A DNA stretch of 64,000 nt. It comes from Armatimonadota bacterium. Its GTDB lineage: Bacteria > Armatimonadota > UBA5829 > DSUL01. A program made the position numbers and the translations under genes. Shown in pieces: positions 4,993 to 45,496 of the stretch; position 1 is the stretch's first letter; every line of letters begins with the position of its first letter. The notes under the pieces were generated by a model. It was not told where the DNA came from, did not search any database, and saw only the letters and a list, made by a program, of their open reading frames with translations. The stretch spans positions 62,001 through 126,000 of the forward strand of contig AP024674.1 of the NCBI GenBank assembly GCA_025998755.1, in the 5' to 3' direction.

Positions 4993-5133
4993 CTTTCGCC
5001 GCCCATCTGCACCTGCCCTGTTGCGAAGAGTGCGCAGCGAGGGTAAATATTGCTATGACAACGACACGGCAGGCCCGCGCCGCCGGTCGTTTGCTCCGCA
5101 GGGGTGAGTCGAGAACCCCACGGAGCTCTCTTC

Positions 5134-5226
5134 GTTCCCGCGGGGGGAGCCGGCGAAGGCCGGCTGAGAGGCCCGGAATATCGGGCGACCCCAGGAACCT
5201 GATCCGGGTAATGCCGGCGTAGGAAC
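5134..5226 (+). promoter_or_regulatory. TPP (thiamine pyrophosphate) riboswitch
   Basis: The THI-element core is clear: GGGGGGAGCC opens the domain, GGCTGAGAGG (CTGAGA at 5164-5169) forms the pyrimidine-sensing arm, and GAACCTGATC (5195-5204) with GGTAATGCCGGCG forms the pyrophosphate-sensing arm. The closing stem P1 is GTTCC (5134-5138) with GGAAC (5222-5226). These elements are near-invariant in the family. TPP binding normally represses thiamine genes. Here the downstream operon is a prepilin-type gene and two YkoE-like transporter genes. A hairpin that buries the first ribosome binding site lies about 125 bases further on. Confidence 0.93.
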
Positions 5227-5351
5227 AGCGGAAAAGCGCGGACTTTCCCCGAACGTCTGCTTCTGGAATCGCGTCTGTCAGCGCCGCTGTACGCAGGACC
5301 CGGCCGGCGGCGCCGTCAGCTTCCCGGCCTCATTATCGGTCGCCGGGATGG

Positions 5352-36353: not shown

Positions 36354-36382
36354 TTGCGGTGGCCCGGCGCGTGTGTTATGAT
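36354..36382 (+). promoter_or_regulatory. Sigma-70-type promoter of the nusA operon
   Basis: TTGCGG (36354-36359), a 17-base spacer and TATGAT (36377-36382). It lies 326 bases upstream of nusA. A start near 36389 would give a long 5' leader. Confidence 0.7.
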
Positions 36383-36414
36383 GTTTGCCGTAAGGTTTTC
36401 TCGGCCAGCCGACG

Positions 36415-36441
36415 AAGTGGGTTCCCCGACCCGCTTTTTTT
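36415..36441 (+). terminator. Early intrinsic terminator in the nusA leader
   Basis: AAGTGGGT and ACCCGCTT pair over 8 bp (one G-T wobble) around TCCCCG, followed by a T-run of seven. It lies about 30-50 bases after the predicted transcription start and before nusA, so it should act as an attenuator. Confidence 0.7.
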
Positions 36442-36487
36442 ATTTCCCGGTGGCCGGGTAGGGACGGGGAAGACGGGACCGGATGTC

Positions 36488-36610
36488 GCCCGGAGTGGCG
36501 GAATCGGGCTGGGAAGCCCGAAGTCGCACGAAGGCGCAGGTTCGGGGGTTCGGAAGAGTCGCTGCAAGGACGACCCGGGCGGACAGACCGTAACGGGTCG
36601 CTTTGTTTAT
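36488..36610 (+). promoter_or_regulatory. Structured nusA leader with alternative helices
   Basis: GCCCGG (36488-36493) can pair with CCGGGC (36575-36580), enclosing a hairpin TCGGGCT-GGGA-AGCCCGA. The same 3' region, CGACCCG (36571-36577), can instead pair with CGGGTCG (36594-36600), followed by CTTTGTTTAT. The two pairings exclude each other. A further 10-bp hairpin GGAGAACGCG/CGCGTTCTCC lies at 36650-36673. No rimP gene is present in the 36238-36707 gap. Confidence 0.45.
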
Positions 36611-36707
36611 GGGGGAGATCCGCCGGGCGCGCCAGACGCCTGGGCAAGTGGAGAACGCGCGGGCGCGTTCTCCGGGCCGTACGCGTTCTTGACGGGAGGC
36701 AGGGTAC

Positions 36708-37862
36708 GTGAACGAAGAGATCCTGGACGCGCTGCGTCAGATAGAAAAAGAGAAAGATATCCCGTTCGAGGTCCTGATGGAGGCCATCGAATCGGCGCTG
36801 GTGCACGCGTACAAGAAGCACTTCGCTGCGACGGGAGACGTGCGCGTCCGCGTGGAGTCCACGCGGGCGGGCTTCCGGGTGTTCTGTCAGAAAGACGTGG
36901 TGGAACATGCCGAGAATCCCCACCTGGAGATCAGCCTCGCCGAGGCCAAGGCCATCAACCCGGACGCCGCCATCGGGGACATCATCGAGTTTGAAGTCAC
37001 CCCGGAGAACTTCGGGCGCATCGCCGCCCAGACGGCCAAGCAGGTGGTGGTCCAGCGTCTCAGGGATGCCGAGCGGGAACAGGTCTATGAGGAGTTCGGC
37101 GACCGCGTGGGCGAGATCGTTACAGGAACGGTCCAGCGGGGCGAGGGACGCAACGTCATCGTAGCGCTCGGCAAGGTGGATGCCATCCTGCCTCCGGCGG
37201 AGCAGGTCCCTACGGAGCCGTACAATTTCAATGACCGTATCAAGGTGTATGTGCTGGAGGTGCGCCGCACCACACGTGGCCCGCAGGTCATCGTCTCCCG
37301 AACCCATCCCAATCTGATCCGCGGACTTTTTGAGCTGGAGGTTCCGGAGATCAGCGAAGGCATCGTCGAGATCAAGTCTGTGGCGCGGGAGCCCGGGCAG
37401 CGTTCCAAGATCGCCGTGCACTCCCGGGACGAGCGTGTGGACCCGGTGGGAGCCTGCGTGGGACACAGGGGCACGCGGGTGCAGTCCGTGGTCAACGAGC
37501 TGTACGACGAGAAGGTGGACATCGTCCGCTGGAGCGAGGACACGGCGCGGTTCATTGCGGAGGCGTTGAGCCCCGCAAAGCCGTCGCACGTTTCTCTGGA
37601 CGAGCCCAATAAGACGGCCACAGTGGTCATGCCGGATAGTCAGCTCTCGCTTGCCATCGGCAAAGCCGGCCAAAATGTCAGGCTGGCCGCCAAGCTCACC
37701 GGATGGCGCATTGACATACGCAGCGAGTCGCAGGCTGCCCAGCAGGATGCTCAGGACCGGAGCACTGCTTCCCGCGGTGAAGAGCAGGACGCTTCCGGGA
37801 CACTGGAGGGGCAGATCGCCGGGGAGACTTCTGAGATGGCAGCCGGGGAGGCGGGGGAGTGA
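36708..37862 (+). CDS. nusA: Transcription elongation/termination factor NusA
   Basis: A 384-residue RNA polymerase-binding factor that promotes pausing, intrinsic termination and antitermination. The N-terminal RNAP-binding domain (EEILDALRQIEKEKDIPFE), the S1 domain (GDRVGEIVTGTVQRGEGRNVIV) and two KH domains (SRTHPNLIRGLFELEVPEI, and VMPDSQLSLAIGKAGQNVRLA) appear in order. The C-terminal repeats of the proteobacterial protein are absent; the tail is acidic and polar. The GTG follows GGGAGGCAGGGTAC. It heads the translation/transcription operon, and rimP, its usual partner, is missing. Confidence 0.97.
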   Translation: MNEEILDALRQIEKEKDIPFEVLMEAIESALVHAYKKHFAATGDVRVRVESTRAGFRVFCQKDVVEHAENPHLEISLAEAKAINPDAAIGDIIEFEVTPENFGRIAAQTAKQVVVQRLRDAEREQVYEEFGDRVGEIVTGTVQRGEGRNVIVALGKVDAILPPAEQVPTEPYNFNDRIKVYVLEVRRTTRGPQVIVSRTHPNLIRGLFELEVPEISEGIVEIKSVAREPGQRSKIAVHSRDERVDPVGACVGHRGTRVQSVVNELYDEKVDIVRWSEDTARFIAEALSPAKPSHVSLDEPNKTATVVMPDSQLSLAIGKAGQNVRLAAKLTGWRIDIRSESQAAQQDAQDRSTASRGEEQDASGTLEGQIAGETSEMAAGEAGE

Positions 37863-37886: not shown

Positions 37887-38174
37887 GTGCCCGGACATCT
37901 CATCCGCAGCTGTGTCGGCTGCCGGCGCAGGGCTGTGAAGGGCGAGTTCATCCGGGTGGTCCGGTCACCGGAAGGCCGTGTCTCGGTGGACGTGTCCGGC
38001 AAGGCGCCGGGTCGCGGGGCGTATGTCTGCCCTTCCGCCCGGTGTCTGAAGCAGGCTCTCAAGGGAGGGCGTCTGGCGCGGGCGCTGCGGTGCCCGCCGG
38101 GAGAGGCGGCGCTGGCCGAACTGGAGGCGGCCGTCCGGCGCGAGACGGAAAAGGCGGAAATCGGTGTAGAATAG
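37887..38174 (+). CDS. ylxR: YlxR-family RNA-binding protein
   Basis: A 95-residue protein of the YlxR (RnpM) family, a small RNA-binding protein linked to RNase P regulation in Bacillus. The motifs RSCVGCRRRAVKGEFIRVVR and GRGAYVCPSARCLKQAL match the family, including its Cys pair. The GTG start follows GGAGGGATGAGGGC. It sits between nusA and infB, its normal location. The C-terminal acidic tail is unremarkable. Confidence 0.92.
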   Translation: MPGHLIRSCVGCRRRAVKGEFIRVVRSPEGRVSVDVSGKAPGRGAYVCPSARCLKQALKGGRLARALRCPPGEAALAELEAAVRRETEKAEIGVE

Positions 38175-38287
38175 ACTGGACATACACCGGTATACCGGCG
38201 ATCCTGAAGCTCGCGGCGGGCGGGATATACTGGAGTTTACCGACAACGTTTGCGCGTCCGGGTGACGCGCGAAGGAGGTGAGCGGGT

Positions 38288-40234
38288 CTGAGCAAGACGC
38301 GTGTTTATGATTTAGCCAGAGATCTTGGCGCCCAGCCGGCGGACCTGATCAAGGCCCTGAAGGATCTGGGGGTGGAGGTCGCGAGCCATTCCAGCACCGT
38401 GGACGAGGAAACGGCGGAGCTGGTGCGCGAGCTTCTGTCGGAGCAGGCGGCTGAGGGTCAGAAAGTCGTTCAGATTCCGGCGTCGGTGACGGTGCGCGAT
38501 TTCGCCGACGCTCTGGGGCTGCCCCACGCCCAGGTGCTTTCCGCGCTGATTGAGACGGGTACCTTCGCGTCCCTGAACGAGTCCATCACGCTGGAGCAGG
38601 CCCAGAAGGCCGGCGAGAAGCTGGGATTCACCGTCCGGGAAGGCGCTGCCGCGCCCGCCCCCTCCAAACCTCGCCCCAAGCCGAAGGCTCCCACTCGCGG
38701 GAGCTGGATCCGTCCTCCGGTGGTGACGGTGTTGGGGCACGTGGATCACGGCAAGACTTCGCTGCTGGACGCCATACGTCATACCAACGTTACCGCATCG
38801 GAGTTCGGAGGCATCACTCAGCACATCGGAGCGTATCAGGTCACGCACCGGGACAACTCCTCCAAAGAGGACAAGATCATCACCTTCATCGATACTCCGG
38901 GGCACGAGGCGTTCACAGCCATGCGCGCCCGCGGGGCGCAAGTGACGGATATCGCCGTGCTTGTGGTGGCGGCGGATGACGGCGTGATGCCACAGACCCT
39001 GGAAGCTATCGACCACGCGCGCGCCGCCGGAGTGCCCATCATCGTGGCCCTGAACAAGATGGACCGTCCGGAGGCCAACCCGGACCGCGTGAAGCAGCAG
39101 CTTGCGGAGCACGGTCTTATGCCTGAAGACTGGGGCGGCGATACGATGGTCGTCCCCGTGTCCGCCATAACGGGAATGGGTCTGGAGGATCTGCTGGAGT
39201 CCATCCTGCTGCAGGCGGAGATGCTGGAGCTGACCGCGGATCCTTCGCTTCCCGCAAGGGGAGCGGTCATCGAGTCGCGAGTGGAGCGCGGACGCGGCGC
39301 TGTGGCGACCGTGTTGGTGCAGGACGGCACGCTGCGTATCGGGGATGCGGTGGTCGTCGGATCCACTTATGGCAAGATCAAGGCCATGATGGATGACCGC
39401 GGAGAGCGGCTGCAGAAGGCCGGTCCCTCTACGCCGGTCGAGGTGCTGGGTCTTGAGTCGGTCCCCGGAGCCGGGGACACCCTTGAGGTGGTTGCCGACG
39501 AGAAGACTGCCCGCCAGATCGCCGAGGAGAGGCAGGAGCAGGAGCGTGAGAAGCGGCTCCGGGAGCAGCGACCGCGCACGCTTCAGGATCTTTACAATCA
39601 GATGCAGCGCGGCGAGACCCGCGAACTGAGGGTGGTGCTTCGCTGCGACGTGGACGGGTCTGCGGAGGCCATCCGCCAAAAGCTGGAATCGCTTGGCGAA
39701 GAGTCAGAAGAGGTCACAGTGCGGGTGCTGCAGAGCAGCGTGGGCTCTGTGGGCGAAAGCGACGTCATGCTTGCGGCGGCATCGGACGCAGTGGTCATCG
39801 CATTCAACGTGAATGTGGACCGTGCGGCTCGTGAGGCGGCCGAGCGGGAGCACGTCGAGATCCGCAGGTACAACATCATCTATGAGCTGCTGGACGATGT
39901 CCGCAAGGCGCTGAGCGGTCTGCTGGAGCCCGAGATGCGCGAGGAGATCCTGGGGCACGCGGAGGTGCGTGCCCTGTTCCGGACTCCGCGCGGCATGGTG
40001 GCCGGATGCTACGTCCAGGATGGCAAGATCCAGCGCAACACCAGCGCCAGAGTGCTCCGCGACGGTCAGGAGGTCTGGAAGGGACAGATCGCTTCTCTCC
40101 GGCATTTTAAGGACGACGTCCGCGAGATGGCGGCGGGCTTCGAGTGCGGCATCCAGTTGGACGGTTTCGATGACGTGCAGGAAGGTGACGTCGTCGAGTG
40201 CTTCGTGGTGAGTGAGGTGGCCCGGACTCTGTAG
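38288..40234 (+). CDS. infB: Translation initiation factor IF-2 (probable CTG start)
   Basis: A 648-residue GTPase that positions initiator tRNA. The N-terminal IF2N domain starts immediately ([19 protein letters not shown]), a second occurs near residue 65, and the GTPase motifs are [15 protein letters not shown] and NKMD. Domains II-IV follow to VSEVARTL. An in-frame TGA precedes the SD AAGGAGGTGA, which is followed by GCGGGT and CTG at 38288. No ATG or GTG lies before the GTG at 38372, which would cut off the first IF2N helices. So CTG initiation is the best reading. The protein is shorter than E. coli IF-2 because the N-terminal linker is short. Confidence 0.95.
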
Positions 40235-40300
40235 CGTGGATGGTCTCGCCGCACCTCCCGCGGCGGGGACGCGCAGAAGGCGTCGGGCTTTGGGTCTGCT

Positions 40301-40585
40301 ATGGTCGTTGTGGGGCTGCTGACCGTCGAGATTGCGCTCGGGGAGGGCAGCAGTCTGAAGGACAAGCGGAGCGTGGTCCGGGGAATGCTGGACGGCATAC
40401 GGCATCGCTTCAACGTCACGGCGGCCGAGGTGGGCAGGCAGGACTCGCACCGGGCGGCGGAACTGGCCTTCGCGGTGGTTTCCGCGGACCGCCGCTTCGC
40501 CAACATGGTGCTGGACAAGGTCCTGCAGAGTGTGGAGTCGGACCCGCGTGTCGAGGTGGTTGAGACCTCGCTGGAGTTCCTTTGA
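40301..40585 (+). CDS. ylxP: YlxP/DUF503-family protein
   Basis: A 94-residue protein of the DUF503 family, found next to rbfA in many bacteria, with LTVEIALGEGSSLKDKRSVVRG and ELAFAVVSADRRFANMVLDKVL. The fold is ferredoxin-like and the role is unknown, probably tied to ribosome maturation by context. The ribosome binding site is weak, as the gene follows infB by 66 bases. It ends just before rbfA. Confidence 0.9.
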   Translation: MVVVGLLTVEIALGEGSSLKDKRSVVRGMLDGIRHRFNVTAAEVGRQDSHRAAELAFAVVSADRRFANMVLDKVLQSVESDPRVEVVETSLEFL

Positions 40586-40599
40586 AAGGAGAGCCGGAA

Positions 40600-40950
40600 G
40601 TGTCGCTTCGGCAGGAGCGGGTGAACAAGTTTCTGGTTCAGGAGATCAGCGCGATCGTGCGCCGTATGAAGGATCCCAGGCTCGGATTTGTCACTTTCAC
40701 GGAGGCGCACGTGTCGCCGGATCTACGGACGGCGAGGATCGGGGTGAGTTTCCTGGGGGATGAAGCCGAGCGTCAGGCCTCGTTCCAGGTGCTGCAAAGG
40801 GCGGTGGGCTACATCCGCAGGGAGCTGCTGAAGGTCTCGCATATGCGGACCACCCCGATGCTGGAACTGTACCTGGACGACGGGCCTCTGAAGAGCGCGC
40901 GGGTGCAGGAGCTGTTGCGAGAGATCGAGGATGACCAGGCTGACATCTGA
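40600..40950 (+). CDS. rbfA: Ribosome-binding factor A
   Basis: A 116-residue KH-type protein that assists late 30S maturation near helix 1 of 16S rRNA. Landmarks are QERVNKFLVQEISAIVRRMKDPRLG, TFTEAHVSPDLRTARI and LELYLDDGPLKSARV. I chose GTG 40600, with AAAGGAGAGCCGGAA upstream, over a TTG at 40582. The end overlaps nrnA by 20 bases, showing operon coupling. Confidence 0.95.
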   Translation: MSLRQERVNKFLVQEISAIVRRMKDPRLGFVTFTEAHVSPDLRTARIGVSFLGDEAERQASFQVLQRAVGYIRRELLKVSHMRTTPMLELYLDDGPLKSARVQELLREIEDDQADI

Positions 40951-45394: not shown

Positions 45395-45468
45395 GGCGGA
45401 GTAGCTCAGTTGGTCAGAGCACACGGCTCATACCCGTGGCGTCGCCGGTTCGAGTCCGGCCTCCGCTA
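45395..45468 (+). tRNA. tRNA-Met (CAT), elongator type
   Basis: A 74-nt cloverleaf. The acceptor GGCGGAG pairs with CTCCGCT with a G1-U72 wobble, D-arm GCTCAGTTGGTCAGAGC, anticodon stem CACGG/CCGTG with anticodon CAT at 45429-45431, and T-arm GCCGGTTCGAGTCCGGC. CCA is not encoded. The sequence resembles elongator tRNA-Met; a lysidine-modified tRNA-Ile with the same anticodon cannot be excluded. It lacks the three G-C pairs typical of initiator tRNA. Confidence 0.9.
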
Positions 45469-45496
45469 CTTTCCTCTCTCCCTTAGTTACCACACT

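Follow-up and report, generated by a model that had tools for sequence, protein, structure and literature searches.

A predicted NusA-responsive attenuator of the rimP-leader type precedes nusA in Armatimonadota, most of which appear to lack RimP

How might transcription of nusA be controlled in a bacterium in which no rimP precedes the gene? The question is raised by a 64,000-nucleotide stretch of DNA (the window) from an Armatimonadota genome of 3.29 Mb in a single contig (G000), in which the nusA-ylxR-infB-rbfA operon is preceded by the 5' leader of interest here (Table 1). Elsewhere in the window, a TPP riboswitch was found at 5133–5243 (Rfam RF00059, 67.8 bits), and the single tRNA gene, a tRNA-Met (CAT) at 45395–45469, lies downstream of the nusA gene cluster. 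A first-pass annotation had described in the leader a promoter soon followed by an intrinsic terminator with seven T, and further on two competing pairings, and had considered autogenous control by NusA plausible. The promoter was present as described, with TTGCGG at 36354–36359, a spacer of 17 bases and TATGAT at 36377–36382, the -10 being preceded by TGT (tgtTATGAT, with TG just 5' of the -10); the RNA would start some 7–10 bases past the -10. The terminator, here named T1, was likewise found, separated from the promoter by a gap of 31 bases and consisting of a stem (36414–36437) and a run of seven T (T7). Its core, GTGGG...CCCGC with T7, has the GGG...CCC stem and U-stretch that define the rimP-leader, and its position (36414–36441) in the 5' UTR of nusA-ylxR-infB is also that of the rimP-leader.

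Table 1. Features of the nusA leader and operon, with positions counted from the first base of the window.
Feature	Sequence or comment	Position	Strand	Basis
Promoter P	TTGCGG-17-TATGAT	36354..36382	+	Read in sequence
Leader RNA, short 5' part before T1		36392..36413	+	Start site predicted from promoter position
T1, intrinsic terminator/attenuator, rimP-leader type	GAAGTGGGTT-CCCC-GACCCGCTTT then TTTT	36414..36441	+	Fold and conservation
Conserved short stretch just 5' of T2	GAAGAGTCGCT; GAAnAGYCGC in relatives	36551..36562	+	Three-member family alignment
T2, second hairpin	CGACCCG-N-GCGGA...CCGTAA-CGGGTCG then CTTTGTTTA	36571..36612 (hairpin 36571-36600)	+	Family conservation and fold
nusA	GTG start; regulated gene and proposed regulator	36708..37862	+	Pfam NusA_N, S1, KH_5
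ylxR, infB, DUF503 gene, rbfA	Downstream operon genes	37887..40950	+	ORFs and Pfam

Taken as a single sequence, the leader showed features that were only mildly unusual. T1 was the strongest + strand terminator-like site around nusA in a terminator scan and dominated the predicted fold of a 54-nt stretch (-16.7 kcal/mol), with a folding z of -1.9 against shuffles, and the 5-kb region contained 5 terminator-like sites with 3.5 expected. Because these scores improve only mildly on those of shuffled sequences, the case for T1 depends on comparison between genomes.

The nusA gene of the window was matched in 76 of 81 Armatimonadota genomes, its own included, and the DNA upstream of nusA could be read in 75 of them; no nusA match was found in the same-genus genome G001, which is 69% complete. 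The same hairpin sequence (RAGTGGG...CCCRCTY), with a U-tract, lay before the nusA operon in 66 of these 75 genomes, with a promoter in front. A strict version of the pattern was found in 56/75 genomes, whereas 100 dinucleotide-shuffle sets gave 0.04 on average and never more than 1, so that by comparative evidence T1 is conserved far beyond chance. Among the 59 leaders compared, the inner GGG-CCC pairs were invariant (59/59); the search pattern itself demanded GGG and CCC, and the independent test is the shuffle control. The outer pair, in contrast, varied in a compensatory manner, being G-C in 50 leaders and A-T in nine, including that of the window. The U-tract is T7 in the window and TCTTTT in relatives. 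Most of the 59 leaders also carried a promoter resembling TTGCAA-17-TGnTATACT 5' of T1, and the distance from promoter to hairpin was near-constant in most genomes (about 25–45 bases).

The element was also nearly unique to this locus. In whole-genome searches the signature AGTGGG...CCCRCTYTT gave one match each in G000 (the nusA site) and in its family members G002 and G003, and across the 81 genomes its matches were mostly the nusA site, with one or two others in some genomes; the reversed pattern used as a control gave zero to three matches per genome (two in G000). The same hairpin, GAGTGGG...CCCACTCTTT, was moreover found in a further set of 80 loci, almost all of them from Bacillota: of the 77 with sufficient upstream sequence, 67 carried it. 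In its Bacillota form (GAGTGGG...CCCACTC-TTT) it generally lies 520–750 bases before nusA, leaving room for a rimP between them, rimP in this set being placed by spacing.

The absence of rimP before nusA, already noted in the first-pass annotation, was confirmed and extended to the whole genome, in which neither RimP domain was found above cut-off. Two domain models were used, both of which matched 10 of the 14 control genomes. In the Armatimonadota set the two domains co-occurred in the same eight of 81 genomes, RimP being absent from the other 73, and most members of the phylum thus appear to lack this protein, common as it is in the control bacteria. In the eight rimP-bearing genomes T1 preceded both the RimP domain and nusA, the latter by 504–771 bases, and in genomes with T1 and no rimP it was situated directly before nusA. 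T1 therefore accompanies the operon with or without rimP, which speaks against a need for RimP as its regulator and fits NusA, the factor left in common where T1 persists in genomes without RimP.

On the strength of these sequence comparisons, T1 can almost certainly be identified with the rimP-leader, a known switch through which NusA would hold down its own synthesis. Naville & Gautheret (2010, PMC2965389) called the rimP-leader the most ubiquitous transcription attenuator, recognised it by a GGG...CCC signature and saw in NusA the best candidate for its regulator. As in the general form of the element known from Firmicutes and Gammaproteobacteria (PMC2965389), T1 is a GGG...CCC terminator hairpin with a U-stretch in the 5' UTR of nusA-infB, it has a conserved stem sequence and it lacks an antiterminator. 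It differs in that the window is without rimP and the element stands before nusA, some 270 bases from the start codon as compared with 4–130. T1 and nusA are exactly 269 nt apart in the window, and 185 and 290 nt apart in the other family members, so that the published terminator-gene range of 4–130 nt, which is not a strict criterion, is exceeded in the window and its family, whereas most other relatives fall inside it. Autoregulation of nusA, which the first-pass annotation had called established in other bacteria, is documented in Bacillus subtilis, where NusA-stimulated termination in the ylxS(rimP)-nusA leader limits read-through into nusA (2025 review, PMC12288461); the Bacillota loci examined here share the hairpin sequence of the window. 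In Streptococcus agalactiae, RNA-seq showed that transcription of the rimP-nusA operon terminates 31 nt past its start site, and NusA feedback was suggested. No match to Rfam was obtained in the leader region at the gathering score, relaxed thresholds yielding only chance-level matches to unrelated families, and no description of a rimP-leader in Armatimonadota was found in the literature searched.

A mechanism of this type, in which NusA stimulates termination at T1 with no antiterminator involved and in which a second hairpin (T2) probably provides a second weak stop, is considered highly probable; the occurrence of termination, its response to NusA and a role for T2 are what we infer from the sequences. 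Transcription would start about 8 bases past TATGAT, and some 25 bases further on RNA polymerase would make the T1 hairpin and its U-tract. Polymerase-bound NusA would promote formation of this hairpin and pausing. When NusA is plentiful, most transcripts would end at T1, giving RNAs of roughly 50 nucleotides, and when it is scarce, more polymerases would read into the nusA-infB-rbfA operon; an antiterminator would not be needed. In the family of the window's organism T2, about 130 bases past T1, would probably act as a second weak NusA-responsive stop. The plausibility that the first-pass annotation had granted to autogenous control is thus strongly supported, at the level of sequence, by the conservation of T1 and by its identity with the described rimP-leader.

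The T7 tract of the window is long, so that T1 might terminate well without NusA, which counts against a NusA response. T1 could then set the output of the operon as an intrinsic terminator working at a fixed efficiency with no feedback, a reading with which the strong U7 tract of this genome and the failure to detect an antiterminator both agree. It is nevertheless unlikely, given that conservation across two phyla extends beyond the stability of the stem to its primary sequence and that the signature is nearly unique to the locus, which suggests specific recognition. Nor can shielding of the operon from upstream transcription be all that T1 does, since a promoter precedes it. Alternatively, the sensor that binds T1 might be another product of the operon or a ribosome-assembly protein, namely RimP, YlxR, IF2 or RbfA. 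RimP autoregulation was indeed raised as a possibility for the rimP-leader (Naville & Gautheret 2010, PMC2965389), and YlxR, IF2 and RbfA are also encoded in the operon. Such a sensor is less likely still, as RimP is missing from 73 of the 81 genomes while T1 stays directly before nusA, and as hairpins in the transcription complex are already a site of NusA action and the autoregulation data from B. subtilis (PMC12288461) support NusA.

The proposal of a two-state leader fared differently. The first-pass annotation had suggested that GCCCGG (36488–36493) pairs with CCGGGC (36575–36580) in competition with the pairing of CGACCCG (36571–36577) with CGGGTCG (36594–36600), and the former pairing would then serve as an antiterminator against the latter, which is the base of T2. 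The complementary stretches exist, and in G000 their pairing extends to seven Watson-Crick pairs, but about 12% of shuffled spacers matched this length (P about 0.12), no counterpart was found at the corresponding place in G002 or G003, and T2 dominated the predicted ensemble with a pairing probability of about 1.0 in G000. The competing pairing was consequently not upheld, and a two-state leader of this kind is very improbable. Both arms of CGACCCG/CGGGTCG were present as annotated, with the T-rich tract CTTTGTTTA directly after them. An antiterminator for T1 was equally undetectable in the 59 leaders, in which complements to its 5' arm reached 3.15 pairs as compared with 2.98 in shuffled sequences, and the stretch before T1 (36392..36413) showed complementarity to T1 not beyond chance. 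The leader agrees in this respect with that of ylxS(rimP)-nusA in B. subtilis, for which Mondal et al. in 2016 reportedly found no antiterminator. The general rimP-leader was likewise described as having none visible (Naville & Gautheret 2010, PMC2965389).

T2 was traced in the family of the window's organism, which is represented by four genomes in the set, three of them usable (G000, G002 and G003). The pattern CGACCCGNGCGGA...CGGGTCG occurred exactly once per genome in these three, always before nusA, and was absent outside them, with 0/25 in the other genomes of the class that were searched. The seven pairs of the base stem were invariant, the inner four-pair stem was kept with different letters in the alignment and folds of the three genomes, and between T1 and nusA none of them had a terminator-like hairpin other than T2, where shuffles yield such a hairpin in 6–16% of cases. 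Between T1 and T2, a TTACAC-18-TATATT found by eye in G002 is suggestive of a second promoter, but no counterpart was seen in G000. Judged by these three sequences, T2 is probably a second, weak attenuator specific to the family. Tandem hairpins are not general in the phylum, as among the other long Armatimonadota leaders only G060 had a second terminator-like hairpin (GGCCGCC-TGTTC-GGGCGGCT). A GC-rich hairpin different from T2, GGCCGCC...GGGCGGC-TTCG, stands directly after T1 in two genera of another family (f27), in genomes G060 (L035) and G070 (L119), and is possibly an independent tandem element.

A tandem arrangement is also known for the gammaproteobacterial rimP-leader (PMC2965389), in which a hairpin with a G-rich 5' arm is combined with an inverse, C-rich one (CCCg...cGGG). 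T2 likewise has a C-rich 5' arm, with a broken U-tract. In Gammaproteobacteria, however, the inverse hairpin is located 5' of the general one and a clear antiterminator is present, whereas in the window T2 lies downstream of T1 and an antiterminator is unsupported. T2 therefore falls outside the gammaproteobacterial tandem class as defined by an inverse hairpin upstream together with an antiterminator, and given the opposite order of the hairpins no common origin is claimed. T2 is also not known to have a counterpart in the B. subtilis leader. It can be suggested tentatively, and may well not hold, that T2 arose as a second attenuator new to this lineage, downstream of an ancient NusA-responsive terminator, so that NusA would be controlled in two steps through hairpins of opposite arm composition.

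Beyond T2, a perfect 10-pair hairpin, GGAGAACGCG-CGGG-CGCGTTCTCC, was observed at 36651–36674 just 5' of the nusA ribosome-binding site, with an extra copy of CGCGTTCT on its 3' side. The other two family members compared showed no such hairpin, and an effect on translation is possible.

With T1 read as a rimP-leader, the most widespread predicted bacterial attenuator would be extended to the Armatimonadota. Whether the conserved hairpin belongs with nusA or with RimP was not settled in the original description of the element, and the natural absence of rimP here argues for nusA. If a two-step control, with T2 added downstream of an ancient terminator, is true, the loss of rimP in most of the phylum with T1 kept would amount to a natural experiment indicating that the element serves nusA and not rimP, and the family-specific T2 would allow the gain of a second stage by an autoregulatory attenuator to be put to the test.
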